A stretch of 24,900 nt of DNA from a virus, in the IMG/VR virus record IMGVR_UViG_3300043395_002799, positions 1 to 24,900 of that record; one strand, 5' to 3'. The notes under the pieces were generated by a model that was not told where the DNA came from, made no database searches, and worked only from the letters and a program-made list of their open reading frames with translations. The position numbers were made by a program, and so were the translations under genes. Below are positions 2,122-24,681 of this stretch, in pieces (the first letter of the stretch is position 1; the number at the start of each line of letters is the position of its first letter).

Positions 2122-2352
2122 ATGGTAGATTTCATCCTGCATCCGCAACTTCGAGACCTCTCCCCGACGGTGACCCGGCGCCCATCGGACGGCGCCATCG
2201 AGGGATCAATCGTTGTCGATGGGGTCAGGTACGCGGCGGCCCTCGATCTGGCCGACTGGGCCGAACCCGATCAGGCCCATCGAATCGGTGACTGCCTGTT
2301 CGCGATGGCAATGAAGACCCTCGCATGGCCCGAAGAGCGGGCACCCGGATGA
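2122..2352 (+). CDS. Small hypothetical protein between terminase and portal (76 aa)
   Basis: I do not recognise this protein. It has an AGGA ribosome site seven bases before ATG and ends in a 4-base ATGA overlap with the next gene, so it is very likely translated. The sequence reads as a short beta-rich segment (GSIVVDGVRYAAALDL) followed by a helix. Small genes at this place in phages are sometimes head-tail accessory proteins, but nothing here supports a specific role. Confidence 0.7.
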   Translation: MVDFILHPQLRDLSPTVTRRPSDGAIEGSIVVDGVRYAAALDLADWAEPDQAHRIGDCLFAMAMKTLAWPEERAPG

Positions 2353-3665
2353 GCTACCCCCGCTCCCTCGGTGGCGTCACCCAGCGCCGGACCCCGATCA
2401 AGCAGATCGAGCTGGCCTGCCGTATCCTCGCCCAGGAGCACGAGGACGACATCCGGCGCAGGTCCAAGGCGACATTCGGCGACCGGGCCAATCAGTGGAT
2501 CCCGGACGTCTCGCGCAACCGCCTCCGCTCCTGGGTCGACCGGATCAACCGCACCCACTACCGCCCGCCCCTCGTGGTGGAGATGCGACCCGATCTCGCC
2601 ATTCTCCTGGGCGACGCCTCAGCATCGGTGCTCGTCAGGCAGTACAGCGCAGCCGGCGGGCGCCCGCTCCCTACCTCCGTCGTCCAGGCAGACGTGGTCG
2701 CCCACCGCTACCGGATCGGCGTGTGTTTCGCGGGCGTCGAGATCGGCTGGTCGGCGAGGTCGAAGCAGATCACCCTCACCCCGATCCGCCCCTGCGACCT
2801 CCGCCTCCAGTACGCCAGCGACGACCCGACCGAGCCGACGAGGATCGCCCGCTACGTGTCTGTCGTGGTCGGCGGCGTCGAGCAGTCCGCATGGGCCATC
2901 TACGACCTGACCGACCTCGACAACCCGAGCCTCCGGATCATGGGCGGAGAGGATGGCAGCGGCCAGGATCTCACCCAGCAGGTCCACGGCGAGACCTACG
3001 AGGGCGCGGACTACTGGTGGCGCTATTCGGACGGCCGCCCCTTCCACCCGATTGTCATCACCGGCAACGACCGCTATCCATACGAGACAAACCCTCTCGT
3101 GGAGGCCACTTGCGCCGTCGCCATGCGCTGGACGGCATGGGGCGTGGGCACCGACCAGGCCAGCCACCCGGCCCGCAACGTGCGGGGCATGGAAATCTCC
3201 CGCGACACCTCCGCCTCTGAGGGTGGTCACGGGGCATCCGGCACCGTCGCCGGCCCCGAGTACGTCCACCGCTGGCAGGACACTGATCCGGAGAGGCCCG
3301 GCGACCACTGGCAGGACGCGCCTGCCTTCGACCCCCTGACGACCGGAAAGGCGATCCGCGAGTACGAGCAGGGAGCCGGCGAGGTCATGGGCCTTGCGGT
3401 CAGCCTGGAGCAGACCGGCGGCGAGCCGACCGAGACCGAGCGGCGGGCCGTCGAGGAACTGATCTCGATGCAGCACGCCGAGTGCCGCCGCTTCGACTCC
3501 GAGATCCTCCGCCGCTGCGCCGCCGTCGCCAACCGGCTCCCCAACGACATCGTGCCCGGCACCGACTTCGATGAGACGCCCTATGAGGTGTTGTACCGGG
3601 GCGAGATTGATGAGGCGCTCAAGCCCGCTGCAGCACCACCACCCGATCCGAAGACCACTCCGTAG
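2349..3665 (+). CDS. Probable portal protein (438 aa)
   Basis: The likely role is the dodecameric ring at the head vertex through which DNA is packaged. The evidence is position directly after terminase and before scaffold and capsid genes, a length of 438 aa that fits siphovirus portals, and a long charged helical region near the C-terminus (about 340-420, with EYEQGAGEVMGLAVSLEQ and EELISMQHAECRRFDSEILRR) of the kind seen in portal stem/crown regions. I chose the ATG at 2349, which overlaps the previous stop as ATGA; an in-frame ATG at 2325 would add eight residues but lies deep inside the upstream gene. No diagnostic portal motif is visible, so the call rests on synteny and overall build. 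Confidence 0.7.
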   Translation: MSYPRSLGGVTQRRTPIKQIELACRILAQEHEDDIRRRSKATFGDRANQWIPDVSRNRLRSWVDRINRTHYRPPLVVEMRPDLAILLGDASASVLVRQYSAAGGRPLPTSVVQADVVAHRYRIGVCFAGVEIGWSARSKQITLTPIRPCDLRLQYASDDPTEPTRIARYVSVVVGGVEQSAWAIYDLTDLDNPSLRIMGGEDGSGQDLTQQVHGETYEGADYWWRYSDGRPFHPIVITGNDRYPYETNPLVEATCAVAMRWTAWGVGTDQASHPARNVRGMEISRDTSASEGGHGASGTVAGPEYVHRWQDTDPERPGDHWQDAPAFDPLTTGKAIREYEQGAGEVMGLAVSLEQTGGEPTETERRAVEELISMQHAECRRFDSEILRRCAAVANRLPNDIVPGTDFDETPYEVLYRGEIDEALKPAAAPPPDPKTTP

Positions 3666-4473: not shown

Positions 4474-5433
4474 ATGGCCGCTGGCAACTGGCTCACCACC
4501 GCTGGTCTGGGCGATGCCTACATCGCCGTCGCTCGTCGCTCCATCGAGCTCGCCCTCTCCGACACGGTGAAGAACCGGGAGGTCATGGGCCACCCCGTGA
4601 TCCTCGGCATTCTGGCTGCGGATGAGGCGCTCGGCCAGCTCCTGGGCGAACTCGGCGTCTCGGTCTCGCTGCTCACCCTGGGCGCTGGCAAGATGACCGC
4701 CGTGGCTGAGGGCACGACTGCGACGGCCACCAGTTTCTCGACGAGCAACACCTCGACGATCAGCCCCGGACGCCGGGCCTACGCGCGGACCGCTAGCGAC
4801 TTCGCCCGCTCCATCGGCGAGCCCATGCTCCGCGGCCAGCTCAGCCCGAGCATCTACGCCATGATGATCTACGAGGCCATGCGCGTATGGTTCAACGACT
4901 GGCTCGATCGCATCCTCGCCCTCGCGACGACTGCGACCTACACCATCGGCTCCACCGGCGTCGACCTCACCTTCGAGGCGCTTGACGACGGGATCGTCGA
5001 CTTCAAGAACCGTGGCGCTGGCGAGGGCCCGGCGATCGGCTTCCTCGATGCCAAGGGCATCAAGGATCTCAACGCTGACGCCCGCTCCCTTGGTGGCGCG
5101 GTCCAGTTCAGCCAGGAGGCCGCGGCCGGCATCACCCGTCTCGGCGGTGGCGCTTTCGTCGGCACACGCAACGGCGTGGAATTCTATCTCAATGGCGAGC
5201 TCGATGCCTCCGGCGGCGACACCTACGGTCTGATCCTGACCACGGGCGCTGTGATGTCCAAGCACCAGCGCGTCCCTCTGCCTCCGGAGGCCGACCTGGT
5301 CGCCGATCTCGGCATGGTCACCATCGAGGCCAAGCGCGGCGCCGGCGGCACAACTCTGTACGAGATGGTCTCGCACAACGCCGTCGGTTGGCGTGAGCAG
5401 GCCCGCGCCGCCGCCCTCGTCTACGTGACCTGA
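4474..5433 (+). CDS. Major capsid protein (319 aa)
   Basis: This is the likely shell-forming subunit of the head. It has the expected length for an HK97-fold capsid protein without a delta domain, sits just after the scaffold gene, and has its own leader with a putative promoter. Features visible include an Ala/Ser/Thr-rich early region (about 78-98), a long amphipathic helix like the HK97 spine helix (about 120-155, SIYAMMIYEAMRVWFNDWLD), and a beta-rich C-terminal part ending VGWREQARAAALVYVT, which resembles the terminal strand of capsid proteins. No N-terminal scaffold segment is fused, consistent with the separate scaffold gene. The call rests on synteny and architecture, not on a sequence signature. 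Confidence 0.82.
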   Translation: MAAGNWLTTAGLGDAYIAVARRSIELALSDTVKNREVMGHPVILGILAADEALGQLLGELGVSVSLLTLGAGKMTAVAEGTTATATSFSTSNTSTISPGRRAYARTASDFARSIGEPMLRGQLSPSIYAMMIYEAMRVWFNDWLDRILALATTATYTIGSTGVDLTFEALDDGIVDFKNRGAGEGPAIGFLDAKGIKDLNADARSLGGAVQFSQEAAAGITRLGGGAFVGTRNGVEFYLNGELDASGGDTYGLILTTGAVMSKHQRVPLPPEADLVADLGMVTIEAKRGAGGTTLYEMVSHNAVGWREQARAAALVYVT

Positions 5434-10580: not shown

Positions 10581-12535
10581 TGGCCGATAGCCTCGTCTCC
10601 ATCGGCGCCGATCTCTCCGAACTGCGGAAGCAGCTTGCAGCCGTCGTGCCCGAAGGCGGAAAGGCGGCAGCCAAGGTCTTGAACGACCTGAGCAAGGCGA
10701 TCGGCCGGGCAGAAGCTGCCGCGACCAGGGCCGCGGCCGAAGCCGCAGCTCTGAACAAGCAAACCCGCGCCGGTACCGATGCATGGAGGGGCAACGAGCA
10801 GGCGGTAGGGAAAACCAAGGAAAGTCTGGCATCGCTGGGCGCAGCGCTGAGCGTCGTATCGCCTGAAATGGGCTCGGTCGTCACCCAAACGTCCGCACTC
10901 TCGGGCGCGCTCAAGGCTGCTGCTGCGGGTGGCCCAATCGTGGCGACCGCCCTTGCGGCCATCGCCACCGTTGCGGGTACAGGGTACATCGCGTGGCGGG
11001 CGTACAACGAGGAGTCCGAGCGAGCCGCCGCCATTGCCGCCGAGGTCTCCGCCGCGGAAAAGGCGCGCGCGCCGATTGTCGAGGCGCTTCGCAAGGCGAC
11101 CCTCGATCTGGCCGTCGCTACAGGTCAGATGACCGATGAGGCGCGCAAGCTGGAAGATGCGGGACAGTCGGCATGGAGGGCGTACCAGGACGGCACAGAG
11201 GAGACGCGCAAGCGGATCGCTGAACTGCGCAAGGAGCAGGCATCTCTTACCACGCAGCTTGTCGACCAGTTCGAGAAGCGAACACCCGAATGGGTGAAGG
11301 CATGGTCGCCGGTTTCGTGGGCGATCCGCGGAACCACATCCGATAGCGCGGAGCTTGGCACCGAGATCGACGCCCTCAACGCGGAGGTCTCCAAGTCGAT
11401 CGCCATTACCGGCAAACTGGCCGACGTCACCAAGGACGTCGTCAAGGCAGACGAGCGGGCGAAGGAGGCGAAGGATGCGGCGACCAAGGCAACAAAGGAC
11501 CAGGCAGCCGCCCTCGCCGCCCTCATGGCCCAGGAGGAGGCGCGCGCCCAGTCTGAGGAGCAGGCCGCCGTCCGCTCCGAGGCCCTGCGCGTCCAGGCTG
11601 CCCACGTTGCCGCAGCAGCCAACGCCGCCACCATCTCCGGACTCGACACCGTCACCGCGAGGGAGCAGGAGGCTCTCGCCGAGCTCGACCGCATCTACCG
11701 CCAGCGCTTCGCCCTCGCCCAGGAGGCGGGCGTCTCGATCCCCGGCATCGAGGCAGAGCTGGAGGCCCAGCGCACCCAGATCGCCGAGCAGGCGGAACAG
11801 GAGCGTACCCGGATCCGCACCGAGGAGGCAGCGAAGCAAGCGGACGCAGCGAAGCAGGCCGCGGCCCAAGCCATCGCCGCCTGGACGAGCAACGCCAACC
11901 AGCTCGGAGGCTACCTCCAGCAGGGCCTCGCGATGGTCGGCAGCGCGGCCGAGGAGTCGAGCCAGGTTGCCGCAGACAGCGCCCAGCGGCTCCAGGATCA
12001 GCTCATCGCGGGCGAGGAATTCTACACCGCGACGCAGAAAGCCGCCCTCGCCGCCCGAGTCAAGGCCCAGCAGGACGCCGCGAAAAAGGCATGGGAGACG
12101 GCAAAGGCGGCGAAGGTTGCCGAAGCGTTCGCGTCGACGGCTCTCGCGGCAATCAACGCCATCGCCCAGAGCCCGCCGCCGTCGCCATTCGGCATCATTG
12201 GCGCGACCATCGCGACCGCTGCAGGACTCGCCAGCGTGGCCCAGATCCAGAGCCAGAATCCAACGTTCCATTCGGGTGGCTCCCCTGACGAGATCCCGGC
12301 CACCCTGACCCGCAAAGAATATGTGTCCAGCCCTGTTGGTCGGTCTGTGCTCGGCGAGCGTACACTGCGCCGTGCGGACGCTGGGATCGCCCCTCAGCCG
12401 GCGGTATATGCAGTGTCGGTCTATCGGCATGACCGCGTGGTGACCAAGTGGAAGGGTGACGGGCTCAGGATGGGTGACCCCATCGACCAGGCCATCCGGC
12501 GGTCGATGACCAGCATCTATGGGCATCGGAGCTGA
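10580..12535 (+). CDS. Tail tape measure protein (651 aa)
   Basis: It sets tail length and is ejected with the DNA. The sequence is strongly helical and Ala/Glu/Lys-rich, with long coiled-coil stretches (about 10-60 and 270-500), a hydrophobic segment at about 116-140 (GGPIVATALAAIATVAG) and another at about 517-560 that could insert in the host membrane. Near the C-terminus FHSGGSPDEIPATLTRKEYV (563-582) has the GG-x-x-DE-x-PA-x-L-x-x-x-E-x-V pattern common at the end of tape measures. At about 1.5 angstrom per residue, 651 aa predicts a tail near 100 nm. No peptidase or lysozyme domain is visible. It follows the chaperone genes in the normal order. Confidence 0.9.
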   Translation: MADSLVSIGADLSELRKQLAAVVPEGGKAAAKVLNDLSKAIGRAEAAATRAAAEAAALNKQTRAGTDAWRGNEQAVGKTKESLASLGAALSVVSPEMGSVVTQTSALSGALKAAAAGGPIVATALAAIATVAGTGYIAWRAYNEESERAAAIAAEVSAAEKARAPIVEALRKATLDLAVATGQMTDEARKLEDAGQSAWRAYQDGTEETRKRIAELRKEQASLTTQLVDQFEKRTPEWVKAWSPVSWAIRGTTSDSAELGTEIDALNAEVSKSIAITGKLADVTKDVVKADERAKEAKDAATKATKDQAAALAALMAQEEARAQSEEQAAVRSEALRVQAAHVAAAANAATISGLDTVTAREQEALAELDRIYRQRFALAQEAGVSIPGIEAELEAQRTQIAEQAEQERTRIRTEEAAKQADAAKQAAAQAIAAWTSNANQLGGYLQQGLAMVGSAAEESSQVAADSAQRLQDQLIAGEEFYTATQKAALAARVKAQQDAAKKAWETAKAAKVAEAFASTALAAINAIAQSPPPSPFGIIGATIATAAGLASVAQIQSQNPTFHSGGSPDEIPATLTRKEYVSSPVGRSVLGERTLRRADAGIAPQPAVYAVSVYRHDRVVTKWKGDGLRMGDPIDQAIRRSMTSIYGHRS

Positions 12536-12536
12536 C

Positions 12537-15500
12537 ATGGGAACCGGCACCCTACCCACGGTCCTGCGGGGCCCAATCATCCCCGACCCGCGATTTACGT
12601 GGGACAACTTTTCGACGTCCTCCTCCAGCTATACCGAGTACGGCCCTCGCCCCGGTGATGTAGAGCCGCTCGATGATTCCGATCTCGTCCTGGAGGCAGT
12701 GGGCACCATCGGGCAGACCACGGACGTCACCGGCCGCACCATCGAGGCCGGCAGCCCCGACGGCACCGCGCGATTCGTCTGGAAGCAGTCGGGAGACGCA
12801 CTTTGGCGCGGCTGGGCGCCGCCAGTCAACCTGACCGGGTTTCGCTTCGTCGCCCGATCGACCACGGCCAACAAGTGGCACCCGCACCATCTCGCCAAAC
12901 TGGCCGATGGCTCCGTGCTGATCGTGTCCCACAAGGACCTTCGGCAAATCGTGGTCCACAAGCTGAACGCATCGAGCGGTGCGGCAACCGAGGTGGAGGT
13001 CTACGACCCGGGTGCAACCATGAGCATCGATGCCTATCCCTGCCTGCTCGTGCTGCCATCGGGTCGGGTGCTCTGCTACTACTGGCGTGACTTCACGACG
13101 TACTACCTCGTGGGAATGAGTTACTCTGACGATGGGGGTGCGACCTGGGCTGTCGGTTCGCAAAATGTACTGAGCGGACTTGTGGCGGGCCTGACCCCGC
13201 TCCGGATCCGCGCGGCTGAACTGCGCGACCAGGTCTGCATGATCCTGCATCTGACCGATACGGGCACCGGAGACGAGGAGCTGCATCAGTATGCAAGCAA
13301 CGATCTCGGTGCGTCGTTTTCGCTGATCGATACGCTGGACTCAGGAGACCGTGGGTACCCAGACATCATCGAGCACCAAGGGCGCCTCGTCATGGGCTAC
13401 GTGTCCACGGCGCCAGGTGGCTACTCCGCGACATACATTCCCTACATCCGGGTCCTGGGCAACGCGTTCTCCTTACTTTCCGATGCGACCGCCATTCCGG
13501 TAAGCGCCACGACCGATACCATGGAGTGGGCGACCGTCGCAGCGGGCCTGTTCACGGCTGGCGAGTTTGCCCTCTGGAAGGGCGATGAAGGCAATCTGTA
13601 TGTGGCTGGCGCGGACATGGACTCGGGCGGCGGGGCCTATCGCGAAGTCATGGTGCGATGGTCGACTGACGGTGGGGAGACATGGGATCATCTGGGTGGA
13701 ATCGGTCCAGTGGTCGCAGATGGCGTGCCGACCTGGACCGCCGCGGATCTGAGCACCTACCCCAAAGATTTCGCCATCATCGAGCACCAGGGCCGAAGCC
13801 TGCTCGCCTCCCGCCACGCAGCCAATCCCGGCACCGGTGATGATTCCGTGTCGTTGATGTATCTGGGCGGATACACCAGCGTAGAGCCCGCCCAGGATGT
13901 GATCGACTTCCCAGATCCGGAGCTGATCAACGGGTACGTGATCACCTGGGTGCCCTACGACCTGCCCGACAACACGGGCGCAACCTGGACCTACATCACC
14001 GCCGGAGCGCCTACGGTGGCGCTGACGGAGCTCGGGCTCCATGTGACCACGGCGGGAGGTGAGTCTGCGGTCTGGCGGGCTGGCCCCACGCTGGCCGGTA
14101 CGCTGGCCGAGGGCCTGGAGGTGATCGCGGAGGTCCGCGTGGAAGCCGGTACCGCCAGGGTCAACCTCCGGATCTCCGACGCCACCCCGCTGGAATATGA
14201 GGTAGTCGCTCAGGTTTCGACTACTGCGATCACCTTCTACGACAACAAAGCCGCAGCCAATATCGCGACGGTCGCCAGCACGATTGCCAGCGGTGCACAC
14301 ATCCAGGTGAAGGTGGCCATTTCGACCGCAACCGCCAAGATGTGGTATCGCCACGTCGGTACCAACCACGCACAGGCGGATCAGGAGTGGATCCTGCTCG
14401 GTTCGACGACGACGGCGACCTCGGCAGCGGTCAACAACGGCCACGCAGTCATCTTCGGTCAGGATGCGAACTCCGAGACATACTGGCGGCTGGTCGGCGT
14501 CTCCCATGACTTTTACACCGGTGGACACATCGTCAACCAGTCCAACCCTGACGATCTCGTGGGGCGTCCATACTCCGCACGTCCGGTCTATCTCACCGAT
14601 GGCGTAAGCATCCAGGCCATCGACGGCCCAGGATTTCGCAACGAGGAATGGAACCTCACTCCGCGTTTTGACTACCCGGTGTCCAACGTGCACACACCGA
14701 GCCCGCGGGAGGTCTGGAGGTCGCAGGATGACGATACCCAGGTCGACCTCGTCTGGGACTTCGGCGGTACGACATGGCCGATGGGCGCGCTGCTCGGAGT
14801 GTACCTGGGGGAGTGCAACTTCGGCACCGCCACGCTCTGGGGTCGCCCTGCCGGTGGGGTATGGGCGAACCTGGGGACGATGGACCTGCGCGTCCAGACG
14901 GGCCTGAAGTACACCCTTGACGACCGCATCGTGCGACCCGACACGACGGGCGGATCCTCCTGTGCAATGTTCTTCCCGATAGACATCCTCGCCGGTTCGC
15001 ACATCGTGGTCGGTGGCGCTGGCGAGTCGAGCGTCGTCCGAAAGATCCGGCACAACACGGGAGGCGCATGGGTCGCGGGCTCGACTACGCAGAATACGAG
15101 GATTCTCCTCGAAGAGGTCGACGGCACCGAAGACGCCTCCGGCACGGCCGCCGAAATCTGGCTCAAGGATGGCGTGTTCATCGTCCCGGTGACGACCGCC
15201 TACGATGCCTTCCGGATCCGCATTCCGGTGCAGTCCACCGCCGAAGGCTACTTCCAGATCGGGGTGGTGAACATCGGTCACTTTCACCATTTCGCCCGGG
15301 CCTATGATTGGGGTCGCAGCCTCGAAGTGACCCCGATCTACGAGATGACCGAGGGTCGTACCGGTCTGCGCCGGGTGCGCCGCTTGGCCAAGGCTCGACG
15401 TGCGGTCGAGATCGGCTGGACCGACGGCGTTGACGCATCGGCCGGAACGGCCATCAATCCGGCACCCAACTTCGCGCTGGGCTGGACGGCTGGCGGCGCC

Positions 15501-15773
15501 GCGTCTGGCGTTGGCGCCGATGCCATGACCCTCTATGACGTCTACGGCCTGCTTGAGCGGTGCGGGGGCGCGGAGGTGCCCGTGACATACGTGGCGGCTG
15601 CACCGCCCCCCAGTACCTCCAGCTCCCTTGTACGCGTCGTCAACCGCGCCCTGGTCCTGCATGGCCGGGTCGTGACGGAGACCTGGCGAAAGGACGTCGT
15701 GCTCGGCAATGAATGGGCCGATCCCGGTGAACTGCATCGTGGTAGCACGCTTCGCATCGAGGAGGATGTATGA
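12537..15773 (+). CDS. Large tail tip/adsorption protein with Asp-boxes (1078 aa)
   Basis: The start at 12537 has GGAG five bases upstream and lies just after the tape measure stop; an ATG at 12519 would add six residues. The N-terminal half looks like a sialidase-type beta-propeller, with Asp-box motifs SDDGGATW (197-204) and STDGGETW (376-383) and a weaker SNDLGASF (254-261). Residues about 480-670 look like a concanavalin-type beta-sandwich (EGLEVIAEVRVEAGTARVNL, WILLGSTT). The C-terminal third is beta-rich and probably attaches to the tail tip. Position between tape measure and hub suggests a baseplate or adsorption protein. I see no clear catalytic Arg triad for sialidase activity, so carbohydrate binding is the safer inference. 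Confidence 0.75.
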   Translation: MGTGTLPTVLRGPIIPDPRFTWDNFSTSSSSYTEYGPRPGDVEPLDDSDLVLEAVGTIGQTTDVTGRTIEAGSPDGTARFVWKQSGDALWRGWAPPVNLTGFRFVARSTTANKWHPHHLAKLADGSVLIVSHKDLRQIVVHKLNASSGAATEVEVYDPGATMSIDAYPCLLVLPSGRVLCYYWRDFTTYYLVGMSYSDDGGATWAVGSQNVLSGLVAGLTPLRIRAAELRDQVCMILHLTDTGTGDEELHQYASNDLGASFSLIDTLDSGDRGYPDIIEHQGRLVMGYVSTAPGGYSATYIPYIRVLGNAFSLLSDATAIPVSATTDTMEWATVAAGLFTAGEFALWKGDEGNLYVAGADMDSGGGAYREVMVRWSTDGGETWDHLGGIGPVVADGVPTWTAADLSTYPKDFAIIEHQGRSLLASRHAANPGTGDDSVSLMYLGGYTSVEPAQDVIDFPDPELINGYVITWVPYDLPDNTGATWTYITAGAPTVALTELGLHVTTAGGESAVWRAGPTLAGTLAEGLEVIAEVRVEAGTARVNLRISDATPLEYEVVAQVSTTAITFYDNKAAANIATVASTIASGAHIQVKVAISTATAKMWYRHVGTNHAQADQEWILLGSTTTATSAAVNNGHAVIFGQDANSETYWRLVGVSHDFYTGGHIVNQSNPDDLVGRPYSARPVYLTDGVSIQAIDGPGFRNEEWNLTPRFDYPVSNVHTPSPREVWRSQDDDTQVDLVWDFGGTTWPMGALLGVYLGECNFGTATLWGRPAGGVWANLGTMDLRVQTGLKYTLDDRIVRPDTTGGSSCAMFFPIDILAGSHIVVGGAGESSVVRKIRHNTGGAWVAGSTTQNTRILLEEVDGTEDASGTAAEIWLKDGVFIVPVTTAYDAFRIRIPVQSTAEGYFQIGVVNIGHFHHFARAYDWGRSLEVTPIYEMTEGRTGLRRVRRLAKARRAVEIGWTDGVDASAGTAINPAPNFALGWTAGGAASGVGADAMTLYDVYGLLERCGGAEVPVTYVAAAPPPSTSSSLVRVVNRALVLHGRVVTETWRKDVVLGNEWADPGELHRGSTLRIEEDV

Positions 15774-17930: not shown

Positions 17931-18916
17931 TGGGACGACTCTACTACATCCCCCCGAGCGATGCTGCCGCGTCCATCCCATCCCTCCGCACCCTGGGCAC
18001 CTCGGCGACGTCCGCTGCGGCCGGGAATGACTCCCGCCTGACCGACTCGCGTGCCCCCTCGGGTGCTGCGGCCGGCGACCTCAGTGGCACCTACCCATCC
18101 CCCAGCGTGGTCAGGGTCGCGGGTACCACCCCCGGCGCTACCGGCCTCGCCCTGCTCGACGACGCGACCGCGGCGGATGCCCGGACCACGCTGGGCCTCG
18201 GGACCGCGGCGGTGCTCGCTGCCGTGACCGCGCCCACCGCCAGTGGGCTGATGCAGCTCGGCACCCTGGGCATCGCTGACATCCCGCTCGCCCTGGCCCT
18301 GCGCTCTGGGTACGGCATGGGCGCGTGCCTGGTCAACGGCGTCGGCACAAACAACAGCGGCATGCAGGCGCCGACCTACTACGGCACCGGCGGCGGTACC
18401 GCGCACAACTGGGTGACCCGCACCGGGGCCGCCGAGGCCGGATGCCGCATCGAGACGCGGTCGCTCGACTTCGCGAACGGTGGCGGTGCCTATGTGAACT
18501 TCCAGCTTCCCACCACGATCGGGGCTCGTCGAGTCTGGATGGGATGGGGCTCGACAAACGAGACCGACTCCGACACCATCACCGGCGACTTCGTCGGCCT
18601 GCGTTACAGCAGCATCGTACCCGACGCCGGCTTCATCCCGATCACCCGGGATGGGACCACTCAGGCCGCCGGCTCTGCCTTCGCGATGCCGGTCGCCGAT
18701 CACAGCTACACCCTGATCGTCCACTGGCCGCGGGGTGGCGCATCGGCAACGCTGATCCTGATCGATCGCACGGCGAACACCATGCAGCAGGTGGCGCTGA
18801 GCAGCAATCTGCCGCGGTCCGGTCAAACGCTGGGCCTGATCTGCATGGTGTACAACCAAACCGTCTCGAAGAACATCAAGTTCGGGAACACTGAGCAATT
18901 CCTGGGGCTGCCATGA
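17930..18916 (+). CDS. Tail fibre / receptor-binding protein (328 aa)
   Basis: The N-terminal 100 residues carry patterns typical of trimeric phage fibres: AAGNDSRLTDSRAPSG, then GDLSGTYPSPSVVRVAG, and ATAADARTTLGLGTAA. The C-terminal 200 residues are a beta-rich globular region with Trp, Tyr and Gly (ARRVWMGWGSTNETDSDTI, GLRYSSIVPDAGFIPI), likely the receptor-binding head. It is the last large gene of the tail module, the usual place for host-range proteins. The short shaft suggests a stubby fibre. No intramolecular chaperone or lyase motif is visible. It overlaps the next small gene by ATGA. Confidence 0.78.
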   Translation: MGRLYYIPPSDAAASIPSLRTLGTSATSAAAGNDSRLTDSRAPSGAAAGDLSGTYPSPSVVRVAGTTPGATGLALLDDATAADARTTLGLGTAAVLAAVTAPTASGLMQLGTLGIADIPLALALRSGYGMGACLVNGVGTNNSGMQAPTYYGTGGGTAHNWVTRTGAAEAGCRIETRSLDFANGGGAYVNFQLPTTIGARRVWMGWGSTNETDSDTITGDFVGLRYSSIVPDAGFIPITRDGTTQAAGSAFAMPVADHSYTLIVHWPRGGASATLILIDRTANTMQQVALSSNLPRSGQTLGLICMVYNQTVSKNIKFGNTEQFLGLP

Positions 18917-19062
18917 CCGAGATCCTCGCCACCATCACGACCCTCCGCGAGCAGGTGGCTATGCTGAAGACGGATACCCTGATGACGGAGGAGGAGCGCC
19001 GAGCCGTGATGCTGGCGATCCTTCGGGCCATGGCCGACGTGCTGTGGGAGGTCATCGGCTGA
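18913..19062 (+). CDS. Small helical protein after the fibre (49 aa)
   Basis: It starts in an ATGA overlap with the fibre gene and ends in a TGATG overlap with the next. The sequence is one or two amphipathic helices (TEILATITTLREQVAMLK and EEERRAVMLAILRAMADVL) and looks like a short coiled coil. Small coiled-coil proteins directly after fibre genes may be fibre accessory or holin-linked proteins. No function can be assigned. Confidence 0.6.
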   Translation: MTEILATITTLREQVAMLKTDTLMTEEERRAVMLAILRAMADVLWEVIG

Positions 19063-19166
19063 TGCCATCCCCCTCCGTCTTCCTCGCCTTCCTCCCTCTC
19101 GACGCGGCTCGGCTCCGGCGTCGAGCGGATCGGCTGGTGGCACGGGCGGCGGAGATGCGGCCGTGA
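19062..19166 (+). CDS. Small basic peptide (34 aa)
   Basis: The frame tiles exactly between its neighbours: TGATG at the start and GTGA at the end, which argues that it is translated. It has a short hydrophobic start (SVFLAFLPLDAA) and an Arg-rich helix (RLRRRADRLVARAAEM). It is not recognisable. It may simply carry ribosomes into the next gene. Confidence 0.45.
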   Translation: MPSPSVFLAFLPLDAARLRRRADRLVARAAEMRP

Positions 19167-19726
19167 CCGTCATCGCCGCCATCCACGATCCCCGGACCGG
19201 TCGCGCCTGGATGCAGGCCGACACCCGCGCCGTTGCCGGGTCCGCCATCGTTTCCTCGACGGTCCAGAAAGTCGCCCGCCATGGCCTCGCCCTCATCGGC
19301 GGATCCGGGCCTGCCGCGATCACAGGCTTCGTCCGTCGCCGCGCCCCCGACCTGGAGCCCGGCCAGGATGTGGAGGACTACCTGGAGCGCCTCTCGGACG
19401 CATGGGTGGAGTGGAGCGCCCACAACGGGCTCGACACCGTCCACGACGGGCGGACCTTCCGGGAGGGTGACCTGCTCGTGGCCACGCCCTATGGGCTCTG
19501 GGGCATCGGTGGGGATCGGTCGATCGCTCAGCACGATGGCTACATGGCGATCGGGTCGGGCTACTGCGAGGCCATGGGGGCACTCTATGCCACTCGGGCA
19601 TGTGATCCGGAGTTCCGTCTCAGGGTCGCCATCGAGGCTGCCTGTCTCCTGGACACCGGTTGTGCGGGGATGGGGGAGTTGTTCGAGGTCCAGGCGCCCA
19701 TGCGGATCGGGGAGGCTGCGAAGTGA
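19163..19726 (+). CDS. HslV/proteasome-like Ntn-hydrolase (187 aa)
   Basis: The protein aligns by eye with HslV, the peptidase of the HslUV protease. It begins MTVIAAIHD, so removal of Met would expose Thr as the N-terminal nucleophile. A later acidic position (QADTRAV, D20) and Lys (VQKVARHG, K36) fall two residues beyond the Asp17/Lys33 of HslV, explained by a two-residue longer first hairpin. ALIGGSGPAA matches the HslV GFAGG loop and YMAIGSGYCEAMGALYA matches its conserved IGSGG-x-x-A-x-AAA segment. Length is close to HslV. No HslU or other AAA+ unfoldase is encoded in the window. GTG at 19163 overlaps the previous stop. It may be a virion maturation, host takeover or lysis-related peptidase; family membership is firmer than role. 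Confidence 0.75.
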   Translation: MTVIAAIHDPRTGRAWMQADTRAVAGSAIVSSTVQKVARHGLALIGGSGPAAITGFVRRRAPDLEPGQDVEDYLERLSDAWVEWSAHNGLDTVHDGRTFREGDLLVATPYGLWGIGGDRSIAQHDGYMAIGSGYCEAMGALYATRACDPEFRLRVAIEAACLLDTGCAGMGELFEVQAPMRIGEAAK

Positions 19727-20181
19727 CCGCCCCCCGATTGGCCATCCGGATCACCCGCGACCACTTCCTCCCCGATCGCACCCTCGGAACGGTCCACCTC
19801 GATCTCCCCGACGACTCGGCCGGCTTCCTTCCTTTCGGCTTCTCCGCCGAGGACCCCGATCGCCACCTCGAGGAGCACCCCGAGGCGAAGATCAGGGGCG
19901 CGACCGCGATCCCGCTCGGGACCTACAAGGTCCACCTCTACGACAGCCCCAAGCACGGGCCCGACACGCCTGAGCTGCTATCGGTCCCCGGCTATGGCCA
20001 CGTCCAGATCCACCCTGGCAACGGCCCCGCTGACACCGAGGGCTGCCTCCTCTTCGGCCTCGCTCGCACTGACTCGATGATCCTCCGCTCGCGGCTGGCC
20101 TGCACCTGGCTTCGGGCGGAGATCATCCGGGTCATCCGGGCGGGCGGCGAGGTCACCGTCGAGATCAGGCGGGCACCATGA
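19723..20181 (+). CDS. DUF5675 family protein (152 aa)
   Basis: The start is GTG at 19723 in a GTGA overlap with the peptidase gene. The sequence has the family pattern: a strand pair early (LAIRITRDHFLPDRTLG), TAIPLGTYKVHLYDSP (61-76), then a conserved VPGYGHVQIHPGNGPADTEG with I96, H97, P98, G99, N100, D104, E106 and G107, C108, and a terminal helix (LRSRLACTWLRAEIIRVI). The conserved His, Asp and Cys resemble a possible catalytic set. DUF5675 proteins are widespread in phages near lysis genes and their biochemical role is unknown. The neighbouring membrane peptide supports a lysis or envelope role. Confidence 0.8.
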   Translation: MTAPRLAIRITRDHFLPDRTLGTVHLDLPDDSAGFLPFGFSAEDPDRHLEEHPEAKIRGATAIPLGTYKVHLYDSPKHGPDTPELLSVPGYGHVQIHPGNGPADTEGCLLFGLARTDSMILRSRLACTWLRAEIIRVIRAGGEVTVEIRRAP

Positions 20182-20309: not shown

Positions 20310-20762
20310 ATGTCTGACCCCATCACCACCTCCCCTCAAGCCCAGGACGCCGCCGCCAGACTCGGCCGCGACACCCTGGCGGCGGAGGAGCGACGCCAGA
20401 CGAGCGCCGCGCTGGTGGCTTACCTGGAGGCCCAGGACGGCCGACAGGTACTCCAGGGCCTGCTCGCCAGGGTCGCCAGCCTGCTCGACCGGGTGAGCGC
20501 CCGCCTCGATGTGTCGGACCCGGTCGTAGCGCGTGCCGCTGAGCTCCTGCACCGCGAGGTCACCGGGCTGGAGCGCGAGGCCGCTGAGGATGTGGGTCGC
20601 GCTCGGGACGGGTCGCGGATCCTGATCCTGGCCACCTCCCGCCCCGCCCTCATCCTCTATGGCATTCTCGCGACCGCGATCTCCGGATGGCTCGGCATCC
20701 AGACCGGCTCGACTCCACCCACTACACCCGGAGCGGCATCTGCCGCAGAAGGTGCCCCATGA
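20310..20762 (+). CDS. Tail-anchored coiled-coil membrane protein (150 aa)
   Basis: Residues about 8-105 are helical and charged with heptad character (RLGRDTLAAEERRQTSAAL, VLQGLLARVASLLDRVSARL, EVTGLEREAAEDVGRARDG). A single membrane span follows at about 111-132 (PALILYGILATAISGWLGI) and then a short Thr/Pro/Ala tail. This layout, a long soluble helical part and a C-terminal anchor, fits a lysis-associated or membrane-remodelling protein, but i-spanins have the span at the N-terminus, so it is not a canonical spanin. It ends in an ATGA overlap with the next gene. No family recognised. Confidence 0.65.
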   Translation: MSDPITTSPQAQDAAARLGRDTLAAEERRQTSAALVAYLEAQDGRQVLQGLLARVASLLDRVSARLDVSDPVVARAAELLHREVTGLEREAAEDVGRARDGSRILILATSRPALILYGILATAISGWLGIQTGSTPPTTPGAASAAEGAP

Positions 20763-20923: not shown

Positions 20924-21210
20924 TGGGCCAAGGCGCGGAAAGCAACATCGGATATCTCGTCGACATGCCGGCGGGGCGGTCGCTCAACGACCCACCGGAC
21001 ATCGTCTACCAGGTGAGCGGCGCCGGGTCGGTGGCGGAGGCACCCCCCATCTCCTGGAGTGCCCGGGATGACCTCCAGGCCGCCGCTGCGGCCGGCCTCA
21101 CGGACTGGCTCGACTACCTCAACACCGACCATCACGACGTGTGGACCTGGATGGGCATGCGGACATCGGCCGAGCGCCAGCGGATGCACGTGGCCACGAC
21201 CTACCTGTAG
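20923..21210 (+). CDS. Hypothetical protein at the end of the late module (95 aa)
   Basis: Last gene of the rightward module. Its start overlaps the previous stop by one base. The sequence has a beta-rich first half (DPPDIVYQVSGAGSVAEAPP) and a helical second half (DLQAAAAAGLTDWLDYLNTD) ending with a Trp/Met-rich stretch (HDVWTWMGMRTSAERQR). Not recognised. Its last 10 bases overlap the 3' end of the convergent leftward gene. Confidence 0.6.
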   Translation: MGQGAESNIGYLVDMPAGRSLNDPPDIVYQVSGAGSVAEAPPISWSARDDLQAAAAAGLTDWLDYLNTDHHDVWTWMGMRTSAERQRMHVATTYL

Positions 21211-21551
21211 GCGAGGGCGACGCCCGCCACGATCCATCCCAGCACGCCGAGCACCGCCACGAGCCCCCATAGGCGCTCGATGGTCTGGAGGCGGTCCATG
21301 CGGGCGTGCAGGCTGTAGGCGAGCAGGGCAAGACGCGAGGCCACCTCGGCGAGGTCCTGCCCCTCGACGACGGGCAGCCGCGAGATCCGCTCCAGCTCGT
21401 CGACGATCGGCCGAGCTCCGGCTGCGTGATCTGGACCGGGCTCTGACAGGTGCAGCTCCACAGCCCCCGCGGCCTCCAGGGGGAGGTCGGGGCCGTCGCC
21501 GCGGGGGCCTGTCTGGACTGTAGCATGATGGGGTCCCGACTGGTCAGCCAC
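21201..21551 (-). CDS. Membrane-anchored helical protein, last leftward gene (116 aa)
   Basis: The first possible start is GTG at 21551, since an in-frame stop lies two codons upstream; the ribosome site is poor and a later start is possible. The N-terminal 50 residues are Pro/Gly-rich and likely disordered. Residues about 50-92 form an amphipathic helix (RPIVDELERISRLPVVEG, RLALLAYSLHARMDRLQTI), followed by a membrane span at about 93-114 (LWGLVAVLGVLGWIVAGVALA) and a short YR end. It resembles the 150-aa tail-anchored protein of the opposite strand in layout. It could be a holin, antiholin or membrane regulator. Confidence 0.55.
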   Translation of the reverse strand: MADQSGPHHATVQTGPRGDGPDLPLEAAGAVELHLSEPGPDHAAGARPIVDELERISRLPVVEGQDLAEVASRLALLAYSLHARMDRLQTIERLWGLVAVLGVLGWIVAGVALAYR

Positions 21552-21668
21552 TCGCTACCCACCCGGTCGAGCTCGTGGGGCGCGGTCCGCGGCCGGAGCC
21601 TCCCACGCTGATCCTGTCGAGCCGTCCCGGCCAAAGCCTTGTCCGCTGTGTCGGGGCCCAGGATCAGT
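21552..21668. other. Short intergenic stretch between two leftward genes
   Basis: I see no convincing gene here. The plus strand has an open frame with KPCPLCRGPG that resembles a zinc-ribbon start but no start codon, and it continues as the complement of the leftward gene. No promoter or strong hairpin is evident. Confidence 0.4.
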
Positions 21669-21926
21669 CTACCCCATCGAGCGGGGGCGTGACCAGTCGG
21701 GCGCCGCGGTCACCGGACCCACCGCGGGGAGCCCGTGCGCGCGCCGGGCGGCCTCGAAACTCTCATGCTGCTCACCATCGCTAACCCACGGGCTCTTGTG
21801 GTCGGCGGTGGCGACGATCACGGAGTCGAGGTCATCGCTGAAACTGATCTTGATGAAGCTGGTCCGCGTGTCGCGGGTCCGCTTCCACGTCTCCGAGTCG
21901 TTGGCGGACTTGATCAACTCGTCCAT
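21669..21926 (-). CDS. Hypothetical leftward protein (85 aa)
   Basis: The start at 21926 is set by a strong ribosome site (AGGAGGAG, six bases upstream); an in-frame ATG nine codons earlier lies upstream of that site and is less likely. A short N-terminal helix (DELIKSANDSETWKRTRD) precedes a beta hairpin (TSFIKISFSDDLDSVIVATA) and a loop with SPWVSDGEQHESFEAARRAH, then a Pro-rich tail. It may bind nucleic acid or protein, but no family is recognised. Confidence 0.6.
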   Translation of the reverse strand: MDELIKSANDSETWKRTRDTRTSFIKISFSDDLDSVIVATADHKSPWVSDGEQHESFEAARRAHGLPAVGPVTAAPDWSRPRSMG

Positions 21927-21942
21927 CGCTCTCTCCTCCTCG

Positions 21943-21966
21943 CCCAGCCGCATCCGCCCGGCTGGG
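21943..21966 (-). promoter_or_regulatory. Hairpin abutting a ribosome site
   Basis: CCCAGCC (21943-21949) pairs with GGCTGGG (21960-21966) around a 10-base loop, two bases before the Shine-Dalgarno of the gene starting at 21926. There is no U-tract, so it is not a standard terminator. It is one of four similar arrangements in this module. Confidence 0.45.
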
Positions 21967-21998
21967 GTTGTGGTGCCCGGCGGTGGGCGGGTGGATGT

Positions 21999-22106
21999 CT
22001 ACCTGGACAGCGGGGAGACCCCGCAGGCAAGGCAGATCCCGCCCCAGAGCATGAAGCCTGCCGCCCAGATTGGATGCTGCATCATCAGCATGAAGAGATC
22101 GGCCAT
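21999..22106 (-). CDS. Small membrane peptide (35 aa)
   Basis: The frame has GAGAGGA seven bases before ATG. It encodes a Met-rich hydrophobic peptide, MADLFMLMMQHPIW then AAGFMLWGGICLACGV and a short basic end, with one likely membrane span at about 13-30. It is too small for a family assignment. It may be an early membrane-acting peptide such as a superinfection or host-modulation factor, but this is guesswork. Confidence 0.5.
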   Translation of the reverse strand: MADLFMLMMQHPIWAAGFMLWGGICLACGVSPLSR

Positions 22107-22125
22107 GCTGGTATCCTCTCAGGTC

Positions 22126-22153
22126 CCCCGCACCGGAGCCGGTCAGCGCGGGG
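22126..22153 (-). promoter_or_regulatory. Hairpin upstream of a ribosome site
   Basis: CCCCGC (22126-22131) pairs with GCGGGG (22148-22153), and inside it ACCGG (22132-22136) pairs with CCGGT (22139-22143), with a four-base bulge. It lies five bases upstream of the GAGAGGA site for the gene starting at 22106. The rest of 22107-22230 shows nothing else I can name. Confidence 0.4.
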
Positions 22154-22230
22154 AGGGTGAAGCCGCGAGCCGGGCGGCAGGGGTCAGGAGGGGTCCTGGG
22201 CGGGTGGCGAGGGAGCGGGAGCAGTGAGGG

Positions 22231-22458
22231 CTACCCCGACACGCCGTGAATGATGCACCGCGATCGGATGTCCGCAAGGACGATCCCATCGTCCCTGGCG
22301 GCGCCATCACAGAGTGTGCTCAGCCTTGCGCCATCACGATCCACCACCGATAGACCACGATCCCCAATGGTGAGCAGCTCCAGTCGTGACGGAGCACGAA
22401 GCAGGATCCTCTCCAGGGAGCGGACCCATCGAGCCTCGTCTTCGGTGAGGGGATCCAT
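22231..22458 (-). CDS. Hypothetical leftward protein (75 aa)
   Basis: The start at 22458 has a strong GAGGAGG site five bases upstream; a longer frame upstream is only a basic antiphase extension across the neighbouring gene. The protein starts with a helix (LTEDEARWVRSLERILLRAP) and continues as a beta-rich part (LELLTIGDRGLSVVDRDGA, then GIVLADIRSRCIIHG). Not recognised. Confidence 0.6.
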   Translation of the reverse strand: MDPLTEDEARWVRSLERILLRAPSRLELLTIGDRGLSVVDRDGARLSTLCDGAARDDGIVLADIRSRCIIHGVSG

Positions 22459-22470
22459 CTCATCCTCCTC

Positions 22471-22488
22471 GGGCGGATCCGGCCGCCC
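22471..22488 (-). promoter_or_regulatory. Hairpin between two leftward genes, abutting a ribosome site
   Basis: GGGCGG (22471-22476) pairs with CCGCCC (22483-22488) with loop ATCCGG. It lies after the stop of the 156-aa gene and touches the GAGGAGG site of the gene starting at 22458. No U-tract follows. Confidence 0.4.
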
Positions 22489-22493
22489 TGCCG

Positions 22494-22964
22494 TCAGGTG
22501 TCCCGGGCTTCGGCTGCCGCGATGATGCAGGCGGAGAGGGCTTCGGCTTCGGTGGCGAGCGAGTGCAGATCGCGCACCCACTCGGGCCCATCCTCGGCAT
22601 CGATCCGCCAGAACCCATCGGGACCGCCGACCACGGACAGCCACGGACACCCGGCGGCCTCCCGTGCGAGGGCCAGCAGGCAGCCGACGGTGGCGGCGTC
22701 GGTGAGGTCGGGCTCACCGCGGGTGCGCCACCTCCAAAGTGCCTCCTCAAAGCCGGGGGCGGCGAAGTCGCGTGCACCTCCGTCCTCCCCTTCGCCCTGC
22801 CCGAAGCAGAGCGGACCATTGACTTCACGGATTCTGTACGCCTCCCCGACGGCATGCCCGCCGAAGTCGGGATCCTCCGTGCAGATGACGCGCATCCCAG
22901 GCCCCCACGGGCTCGCGATCTTGTCGGCCTTGCACAGGCGGGCGAGGGCTTCGGTCAGGTTCAT
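22494..22964 (-). CDS. Hypothetical leftward protein (156 aa)
   Basis: The start at 22964 has GAGGAG eight bases upstream and an ATGA overlap with the upstream gene. The N-terminal part has a short helix (LTEALARLCKADKI) and an SH3-like beta segment (GMRVICTEDPDFGGHAVGEA, YRIREVNGPLCFG). The C-terminal part holds LTDAATVGCLLALAREAAG, a phrase common in phage accessory proteins of unknown role, and ends in a helix (EAEALSACIIAAAEARD). No catalytic motif. It may be an accessory or host-interaction protein. Confidence 0.65.
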   Translation of the reverse strand: MNLTEALARLCKADKIASPWGPGMRVICTEDPDFGGHAVGEAYRIREVNGPLCFGQGEGEDGGARDFAAPGFEEALWRWRTRGEPDLTDAATVGCLLALAREAAGCPWLSVVGGPDGFWRIDAEDGPEWVRDLHSLATEAEALSACIIAAAEARDT

Positions 22965-23287
22965 GGCTTTGACTCCTCGGCCAGCATCAGGGCGACCACA
23001 GCCGCCGCCCGCTCCGCCCATCCCCGGCCGCTCGGGATGTCGAGGATCTTGGTGCGAAGCGGAGGCGAAAAGACTCCAGGCCCGCGCCACCGAACGACCA
23101 CGCGCCGCTGCCCGGACAGGCCGCCCAGAGTCCAGCAGGCGACCGACACCCGAGGCGTGCTCGCAGGCGCCATGTTGGCGTAGGGCGCCACGCGGTACTC
23201 AGCACTGCCGATGGTGCGCGGGCGCCAGGGGTAGCCGGTGGCGGCTTCGAGGGCGGGGAGGAGACGGGCGATCTCGGTGGATGTCAT
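22961..23287 (-). CDS. Hypothetical leftward protein (108 aa)
   Basis: It overlaps genes on both sides by ATGA, so its frame is well supported. It has a first helix (TSTEIARLLPALEAATGYPW), a beta-rich middle (PRVSVACWTLGGLSG, QRRVVVRWRGPGVFSPPL) and a C-terminal helix (GWAERAAAVVALMLAEE). No family recognised. The C-terminal helix has the same build as the ends of neighbouring proteins. Confidence 0.62.
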   Translation of the reverse strand: MTSTEIARLLPALEAATGYPWRPRTIGSAEYRVAPYANMAPASTPRVSVACWTLGGLSGQRRVVVRWRGPGVFSPPLRTKILDIPSGRGWAERAAAVVALMLAEESKP

Positions 23288-23697
23288 GGCGTGTCTTCCA
23301 TCCCCGCCAGCAGGAGGCACCCGCGGCGGAGGGTGTCGATCTGGTCGTCCGTCATGTCGGCGCCCATCCGGGCGCGGTGGAGCGCGACGACCCATCCCAT
23401 GTCGGACGGCCACTGGTCGATCGTCATCGTGGCCCCCACGCTGCCGGCCCACCACGCGGCGTGGGCCCGGCTGGTGCGGGAGGAGAGGTCGAGCGATAGC
23501 GATTCCACCCGATCCTGATGCCGAAGGGTCGCATTTCTGTGTGGCGGGATCAGGCCGCACACGGCGCGCGTGCCGAAGTCGGGGTGCGCTGGATAGAGGC
23601 CCACCACGGTAGCGACGATCCCGTCCGATGTGATGACGCGGGAGCCTTCCTGGAGCAGGCCGGGGATGGAGCCCGGAAGGACGAGGGGCATGTTCAT
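23284..23697 (-). CDS. Hypothetical leftward protein (137 aa)
   Basis: The start at 23697 is in ATGA overlap with the upstream gene and the stop overlaps the next start in the same way. The first 60 residues are beta-rich and SH3-like (EGSRVITSDGIVATVVGLYP, FGTRAVCGLIPPH). The second half is helical (MTIDQWPSDMGWVVALHRAR, TDDQIDTLRRGCLLLAGM). Possibly a two-domain accessory protein. Not recognised. Confidence 0.62.
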   Translation of the reverse strand: MNMPLVLPGSIPGLLQEGSRVITSDGIVATVVGLYPAHPDFGTRAVCGLIPPHRNATLRHQDRVESLSLDLSSRTSRAHAAWWAGSVGATMTIDQWPSDMGWVVALHRARMGADMTDDQIDTLRRGCLLLAGMEDTP

Positions 23698-24248
23698 TGA
23701 TCACCCACATCGAAGGGAAGCCCCCACGACTCCGGCTCATCGTAGGGTGAGGATCCGCCGCCGCCGCCGCGCCATCGAACCTTGCTGCCGGGCTCGATGA
23801 GTAGCCGGGCAAGATTCGCCGTGGCCCGGCCGGGGGCGTAGCGGATCACCCACCCGTTGGGCGGGACCAGGGTGCATCGACCACGCTGGAAGGCTCGCAT
23901 CGGAGGCGCTTCGCCCTGCCCGTCCCATCCGATCTGGCAGAGCAGCGCGACCACGGCCTCCATCACCTCGGGGTTGACCACGGCGGAGCCAAACCAGGCG
24001 TCGCAGGCGCACGCGGCTGGGGAGCGGCGGTCGAAGCCTTCAAGGCGCCCGATGCGGCGAATCCAGCTCTCGGTCTGGCCGGGCATGTCCATCCCCGGCT
24101 CGCCATGGATCTCGATGTCCCAGCGCCCAGGGCCCGCCGCTCGGGCGATGTAGAGCCGCGACCCGTCGGGGGTGCGCCAAGTCTGCCCTACGGCCACCGC
24201 TGGGACGGGGCAACGCAGCATCTCTTTCCACGTGAGGGGCGCGGTCAT
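23694..24248 (-). CDS. Hypothetical leftward protein (184 aa)
   Basis: I chose ATG at 24248, two bases after the upstream stop, because an upstream extension is only antiphase across other genes. The N-terminal part has an SH3-like start (VAVGQTWRTPDGSRLYIARA, RWDIEIHGEPG), a Cys-containing linker (SPAACACDAWF) and a helix (VNPEVMEAVVALLCQIGWD). The C-terminal part has CTLVPPNGWVIRYAPGRATA and a Gly run (WRGGGGGSSPYDE). VGQ-x-W-x-x-(D/N)G starts occur in many phage accessory proteins. Function unknown. Confidence 0.62.
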   Translation of the reverse strand: MTAPLTWKEMLRCPVPAVAVGQTWRTPDGSRLYIARAAGPGRWDIEIHGEPGMDMPGQTESWIRRIGRLEGFDRRSPAACACDAWFGSAVVNPEVMEAVVALLCQIGWDGQGEAPPMRAFQRGRCTLVPPNGWVIRYAPGRATANLARLLIEPGSKVRWRGGGGGSSPYDEPESWGLPFDVGDQ

Positions 24249-24250
24249 GG

Positions 24251-24460
24251 CTACTCCAGGGCCTCGCGGCCGGCGTCGGTGTCGGATGGCTCCACCGTGA
24301 GTTCGATTACTTCGCCAGTGTCGCGGTTGACGACGTGAAATGGACGATAGCGCGGATTCTGTGAGCCCCATTCGCCAGCGGCGCCAACCGCTGTTTCCCG
24401 GGTGGCGAAGGTCCCCCATGCGTTGCCGCTCTTCGATTCCACCCTCCAGGGGCGCCTCAC
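24251..24460 (-). CDS. Hypothetical leftward protein (69 aa)
   Basis: It starts with GTG at 24460 in a GTGA overlap with the upstream gene. The sequence suggests a compact alpha/beta unit: WRVESKSGNAWGTFAT as a beta hairpin, RETAVGAAGEWGSQNPRY as a helix, then FHVVNRDTGEVIELTVEP as strands. The pattern is that of small phage proteins of unknown role. Two bases separate its stop from the next start. Confidence 0.58.
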   Translation of the reverse strand: MRRPWRVESKSGNAWGTFATRETAVGAAGEWGSQNPRYRPFHVVNRDTGEVIELTVEPSDTDAGREALE

Positions 24461-24681
24461 GGTTCCACCCCCACCCGCTCCAGCGCCTCCGCCAGCAGCC
24501 CGCGGGCCCATCGGCGGGCCTCGTCCTGGGCGGCGGCGGGGTCGGTGGCCTCAATGATGGTGCCTTCCACCCCATCGGATTCGGTGACCACCTGCCACCC
24601 GCCATCCCGCAGCCTCCACATGGTGATCGTAAGGAGGCCGAGGTCCAGCACCCCGGATTGGCTCCACTCCGCCCGGCTCAC
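24457..24681 (-). CDS. Hypothetical leftward protein (74 aa)
   Basis: It starts with GTG at 24681 in a GTGA overlap with the upstream bL12-like gene and ends in GTGA overlap with the next. It is an alpha/beta unit: strands GVLDLGLLTITMWRLRDGG and WQVVTESDGVEGTIIEATD, then a helix AAAQDEARRWARGLLAEALE. Family not recognised. Confidence 0.58.
   Translation of the reverse strand: MSRAEWSQSGVLDLGLLTITMWRLRDGGWQVVTESDGVEGTIIEATDPAAAQDEARRWARGLLAEALERVGVEP

Follow-up and report, generated by a model that had tools for sequence, protein, structure and literature searches.

What would a virus do with a proteasome-like peptidase that has no unfoldase encoded beside it? The stretch of DNA analyzed here, hereafter the window, comprises 24,900 nucleotides of a virus record (IMG/VR record IMGVR_UViG_3300043395_002799, positions 1 to 24,900). 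A sequence-only reading had described one of its genes as an HslV-like threonine peptidase lacking its HslU partner, and had suggested a role in virion processing, in lysis timing or in hijacking the host HslU. We asked what the protein is, whether the missing partner is unusual, and which function the evidence favors.

A peptidase gene in a divergent phage

The gene is real, and it occupies exactly the interval first called for it (19163-19726, plus strand), encoding 187 residues between a GTG start and a TGA stop. Its GC content by codon position (0.71/0.53/0.84) matches that of the putative terminase, capsid, tape-measure and fiber genes of the window; the frame that overlaps it at 19233-19973 has values of 0.65/0.79/0.63 and is not coding-like. 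Since the GTG at 19163 is the earliest start codon downstream of the previous in-frame stop, and since homology to relatives runs from residue 1, Thr2 directly follows the initiator, as had been read from the sequence. There is no propeptide, as is also the case in the betaproteobacterial homolog BPH. The gene belongs to a tight coding run (18913-20181) formed by a 49-residue ORF (18913-19062), a 34-residue ORF (19062-19166), the peptidase gene and a DUF5675 gene (19723-20181), with consecutive genes overlapping by 1-4 bases each. A search for promoter- or terminator-like sites delimiting the peptidase transcription unit found none.

The phage itself is very divergent. Its putative terminase (706-2109), portal (2325-3665) and capsid (4474-5433) genes have no PHROG or Pfam match; searches of phages and viral contigs found no relative of the terminase, and a search with the long tail protein found none either. 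A 1,084-residue tail-region protein (12519-15773) shows a weak BNR-repeat (sialidase-like) match over residues 128-288 (E = 8.8e-6) that does not reach the Pfam cut-off. The right end (21200-24681), as judged from ORF lists only, seemingly holds mostly short minus-strand genes running opposite to the structural genes. A role in anti-phage defense was rejected, PADLOC having returned no match.

An intact threonine active site

The features of the gene that bear on catalysis are as follows.

19163..19726, plus strand: proteasome-like (HslV/BPH-related) N-terminal-threonine Ntn peptidase; GTG start; putative catalytic T2, D20 and K36; Gly46 at the oxyanion-hole position; G131-S132-G133
19166..19168, plus strand: codon of Thr2, the predicted nucleophile, exposed on removal of the initiator Met; Thr in 11 of 11 HslV and in all sampled phage homologs
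19220..19222, plus strand: codon of Asp20 (mature D19, equivalent to D17 by alignment)
19268..19270, plus strand: codon of Lys36 (mature K35, equivalent to K33 by alignment), the sole lysine besides the C-terminal residue

In an alignment of the window protein with 11 HslV, 6 BPH and 50 phage or chromosomal homologs, Thr2, Asp20 and Lys36 fall on the catalytic T1, D17 and K33, and Gly46 and G131/G133 on conserved columns. The alignment thus upholds the earlier reading of an Asp and a Lys two positions beyond the HslV sites, and the glycine turn is present; Gly46 and G131-S132-G133 lie where HslV and BPH lead one to expect them. Across 42 related proteins, Thr2 and Lys36 are invariant and Asp20 nearly so. 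The conservation of Thr2 is partly built into those homologs that were found by a search pattern, because that pattern contained MTCIV; eight phage homologs retrieved by tblastn with no motif requirement are free of this bias, and all eight have the Thr, the Asp and the Lys, with Thr at position 2. Apart from Lys36, the only lysine in the protein is the C-terminal K187, against 15 arginines, which fits strong selection for the retention of Lys36.

The helix-cap segment had been given as IGSG-x-x-x-A-x-A. The IGSG part stands, and the A-x-A part does not: the actual sequence is IGSGYCEAMGA, that is, IGSG-x3-A-x-G-A. A glycine in the helix after GSG is common to BPH and nearly all phage homologs, whereas HslV has Ala or Ser there.

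Predicted fold and placement within the family

An AlphaFold model built from a 43-sequence alignment (pLDDT 94.6, pTM 0.90) shows the expected strands and helices H1-H4, at residues 51-59, 70-87, 134-143 and 149-163. The window protein is thus confidently predicted to adopt the Ntn/proteasome beta fold, in which helices flank two central sheets, and the earlier assignment to Ntn hydrolases of the HslV/proteasome type is borne out by this fold together with the structural matches and the intact Thr, Asp and Lys. Neither of the two outcomes named beforehand as refuting that reading, a fold of another kind or homologs lacking Thr at position 2, was observed. The model ends with a strand at 173-177 and a short low-confidence tail, describing a compact subunit with no insertions and no C-terminal S12/H5. 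Two of its elements matter for what follows.

19370..19423, plus strand: predicted helix H2, residues 70-87 (AlphaFold); the helix that PPH and RPC are reported to be without (PMC8665760)
19424..19468, plus strand: predicted extended loop following H2 (residues 88-102), which includes two short predicted strands and takes the place of the pore loop; not acidic in composition

The H2-S5 loop, AHNGLDTVHDGRTFREGD, is long, and its acidic residues are offset by Arg and His. The best solved structures by Foldseek are Td-BPH (E = 1.3e-11) and then HslV (3.0e-10), with no other fold indicated; viral structure matches include proteins of other phages named HslV, proteasome beta or Ntn hydrolase. In VIA-align, where residue 2 of the model is paired with chain residue 1 in most rows, the Z values for BPH (20.5), the Mtb proteasome beta subunit (20.6) and HslV (20.0) are tied, and subfamilies therefore cannot be told apart by fold.

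In sequence searches, the likeness to the proteasome/HslV/BPH family is much too strong to be due to chance. Residues 1-169 are matched by PHROG 1040, 'peptidase HslV family' (E = 2.7e-15), and phmmer against solved structures finds BPH from the single sequence (3.7e-6); the 43-sequence profile finds Cm-BPH (4.5e-13), Td-BPH (7.9e-13), Thermotoga maritima HslV (2.4e-9) and an archaeal proteasome beta subunit (6.6e-7). The Pfam Proteasome model does not match the window protein alone and does match 10 of 43 relatives. Viral contigs searched with the single peptidase sequence yielded no close relatives. Weak NCBIfam matches to an RcGTA tape measure (0.066) and an archaeal proteasome beta subunit (0.17) were set aside.

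Does this make the protein an HslV? The NCBIfam HslV models (TIGR03692, NF003964) do not match it at E ≤ 10; about half of its relatives match curated HslV models weakly. Compared with 11 HslV sequences, the invariant Gln of GDGQ and invariant Lys28, the near-invariant Arg35 and the C-terminal YTN are replaced by Arg, Ser, Ala and GCA. We take Lys28 and Arg35 to be contacts of the HslU tail in HslV. The window protein lies outside both the HslV clade (support 100/99) and the BPH clade (98/96) of the best tree; on a branch of 2.32 changes per column, it attaches close to the base, between HslV, BPH and the phage homologs. In AU tests, neither a clade uniting it with HslV (p-AU 0.39) nor one placing it with BPH (p-AU 0.35) is rejected. 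Given the unmatched models, the replaced residues, an H2-S5 loop longer than that of HslV and the position in the best tree, HslV is too narrow as an identity, the best solved match being BPH. We would instead classify the protein, on sequence and predicted structure, as a group I proteasome-like threonine peptidase with BPH, HslV, AAH and PPH as its relatives.

A homolog starting MTCIVGLVDGDRVWMGGDSAG and of nearly identical length throughout occurs in many Azospirillum genomes, across many species and their relatives (genome-contig loci L034-L067), which points to a gene that has been domesticated or retained by vertical descent.

Absence of an unfoldase is typical of the group

The sequence-only reading found no AAA+ unfoldase gene nearby, and this holds. 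There is no hslU in the 24.9 kb record, which may be a fragment, and the sole convincing Walker A motif of the window lies in the terminase, in a record without recognized replication genes, which limits what this search can say about motors. The reading had treated the absence as an oddity, and here we differ. HslU is absent from all 22 viral records considered, namely the window and 21 others with a homolog (up to 369 kb, some exceeding 340 kb). Fuchs et al. (2021; PMC8665760) described phage proteasome homologs (PPH, AAH) and identified no AAA+ partners for the novel homologs, and no unfoldase partner was found for BPH (PMC5777263). On these grounds the absence of HslU is the norm in this group. 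Both the literature and PHROGs already contain phage 'HslV' proteins that lack HslU, and the gene is a divergent example of known phage proteasome-like proteins rather than a surprise.

A model for the function of the peptidase

We propose that the gene probably encodes a phage-borne, self-compartmentalizing threonine peptidase that needs no ATP and trims unfolded polypeptides of the host or the phage, a proposal that draws on sequence, predicted structure and analogy with relatives. The host methionine aminopeptidase would cleave off the initiator Met, leaving Thr2 free to act as the nucleophile; Lys36 would activate Thr2, Asp20 would hold Lys36 in place, and Gly46 would contribute to the oxyanion hole. 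By homology, the subunits probably form a closed double ring like that of BPH and HslV. Such a ring would work without an unfoldase of its own and independently of ATP, unfolded or peptide substrates passing the elongated pore loop. Gene order suggests expression with the late genes, and the product of this accessory gene would then trim or remove selected polypeptides of the host or the phage in the course of infection. BPH, the closest characterized relative, is inert on standard substrates (PMC5777263); an intact site therefore need not mean general protease activity, and a narrow substrate range or an activator is possible. As connectase and Anbu show, relatives may also be monomeric, form split rings or act as ligases (PMC8665760).

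What is the relevance of this protein? A compact, divergent member of the family that retains an intact site and lacks a partner offers a handle on whether proteasome-type barrels work without an unfoldase, and this copy alone changes no picture. Descriptions of phage proteasome-like proteins go back to 2021 at the latest, and our literature search found no paper testing what any of them does.

Gene neighborhoods and alternative roles

Roles in the virion or in lysis had been suggested by the neighbors of the gene, and the comparison of neighborhoods does not support this argument. The homolog of Escherichia phage Eps7 lies among thymidylate synthase, dihydrofolate reductase, ribonucleotide reductase and RNase H genes, and those of Geobacillus, Xanthomonas, Pseudoalteromonas and Vibrio phages are accompanied by comparable metabolic genes or by PhoH. 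Four small phages carry the homolog in or beside the packaging module: between terminase and portal in one (L077:8347-12823), after the portal in another (L005:6201-11539), shortly before the terminase in a third (L014:10001-14599), and after the portal and minor-head genes in the last (L082:5662-10432), the contrast with the nucleotide-metabolism genes around the homologs of large phages being drawn from individual loci rather than a systematic count. As no neighbor is constant across the phage lineages examined, the position of the window gene in a fiber/DUF5675 cassette says little about function, and what fits best is an accessory gene inserted at different places by different phages.

Could the enzyme nevertheless stand in for the usual prohead protease and mature the head or tail? 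No canonical prohead protease was recognized between the putative portal and capsid genes of the window, and the four small phages place their homologs among or beside terminase, portal and minor head genes. The window gene, however, lies downstream of a fiber gene and a long way from the head genes, the homologs of T5-like and other large phages occur in the metabolic settings described above, and the head proteins of the window have diverged to the point where a protease could escape recognition. Moreover, a protease is dispensable in many phages that have a scaffold. We consider this role unlikely.

It is conceivable that the protein represents a proteasome-like subfamily of its own, distinct from HslV, BPH and PPH, carried in the late region of small tailed phages, working free of a motor and processing one specific structural or lysis protein. 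We give this reading a slim chance.

A third possibility is that an HslV homolog docks on the host HslU and redirects the substrates that HslU delivers. The protein shares its predicted fold and its catalytic residues with HslV, full-length HslU is encoded in three of the four bacterial genomes tested that carry a chromosomal homolog, and the trees leave a union with HslV statistically acceptable. Against this stand the unmatched HslV models, the exclusion from the HslV clade in the best tree and the replacement of the HslV-invariant Gln and of the presumed contact residues, which are Ser and Ala here. Pull-downs with BPH did not bring down HslU (PMC5777263). Hijack of the host HslU, as first suggested, is thus unsupported and strikes us as very improbable.

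Equally poor prospects attend a peptidase that times or regulates lysis, paired with the downstream DUF5675 and membrane proteins. The peptidase and DUF5675 genes share 4 bases, and the gene of a protein with a single hydrophobic stretch lies downstream; however, DUF5675 has no known function, and as a conserved partner it was rejected, being present in only 1 of the 21 other viral records with a homolog and distant from the homolog there. No lysis gene was recognized near most homologs examined. The nearest candidates are, in a Vibrio phage, a putative endolysin separated from the homolog by a few genes and, in a Pseudoalteromonas phage, a putative secretion activating protein. The DUF5675 protein itself (Pfam, E = 3.5e-19; PHROG 1501) has no solved relative that sequence searches could find and contains an H-x-G-N...T-x-G-C motif, which we take to recall L,D-transpeptidases. 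The 150-residue protein encoded at 20310-20762 has its single hydrophobic stretch at the C terminus, is possibly holin- or spanin-like and matches no family.

Least probable of all is a specific, non-degradative Ntn enzyme on the same fold, such as a connectase-like ligase or a monomeric amidase: connectase shows that the family can change its chemistry (PMC8665760) and the window protein forms a long branch, but H1 and H2, which are absent in connectase (PMC8665760), are predicted here, and the model has no two-helix insertion over the active site.

Relation to known systems

The trimming peptidase that we favor has its nearest counterparts among proteins of several kinds. With HslV (ClpQ) it shares the predicted fold, the catalytic Thr, Asp and Lys and the GSG motif, and it differs in its longer H2-S5 loop, in escaping the HslV models and in having no hslU in its record. 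Like the PHROG 1040 members of Escherichia phage Eps7 (AGC_0103) and Aeromonas phage 2L372X, it is phage-borne, carries Thr2, Asp and Lys and comes without HslU; it is only about 21-30% identical to aligned relatives, begins with MTVIAAIH where they have MTCIVGL, and stands on a long tree branch in another gene neighborhood. AAH and CPH (Fuchs et al. 2021; PMC8665760) are likewise group I proteins with compact subunits, AAH being reported from many phage genomes. PPH (PMC8665760) is also a phage-borne group I homolog without an AAA+ partner, but it is described as having about 140 residues and no H2, a description that does not fit the window protein, which is 187 residues long and has H2 predicted at 70-87. 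BPH (PDB 5OVS, 5OVT, 5OVU) is the closest solved relative by both sequence and Foldseek, and the two are alike in their four helices, predicted in the window protein, in the absence of a propeptide, the long H2-S5 loop, the lack of a known unfoldase and the Gly after GSG; they are only about 23% identical, and the pore loop, strongly acidic in BPH, is not so in the window protein.
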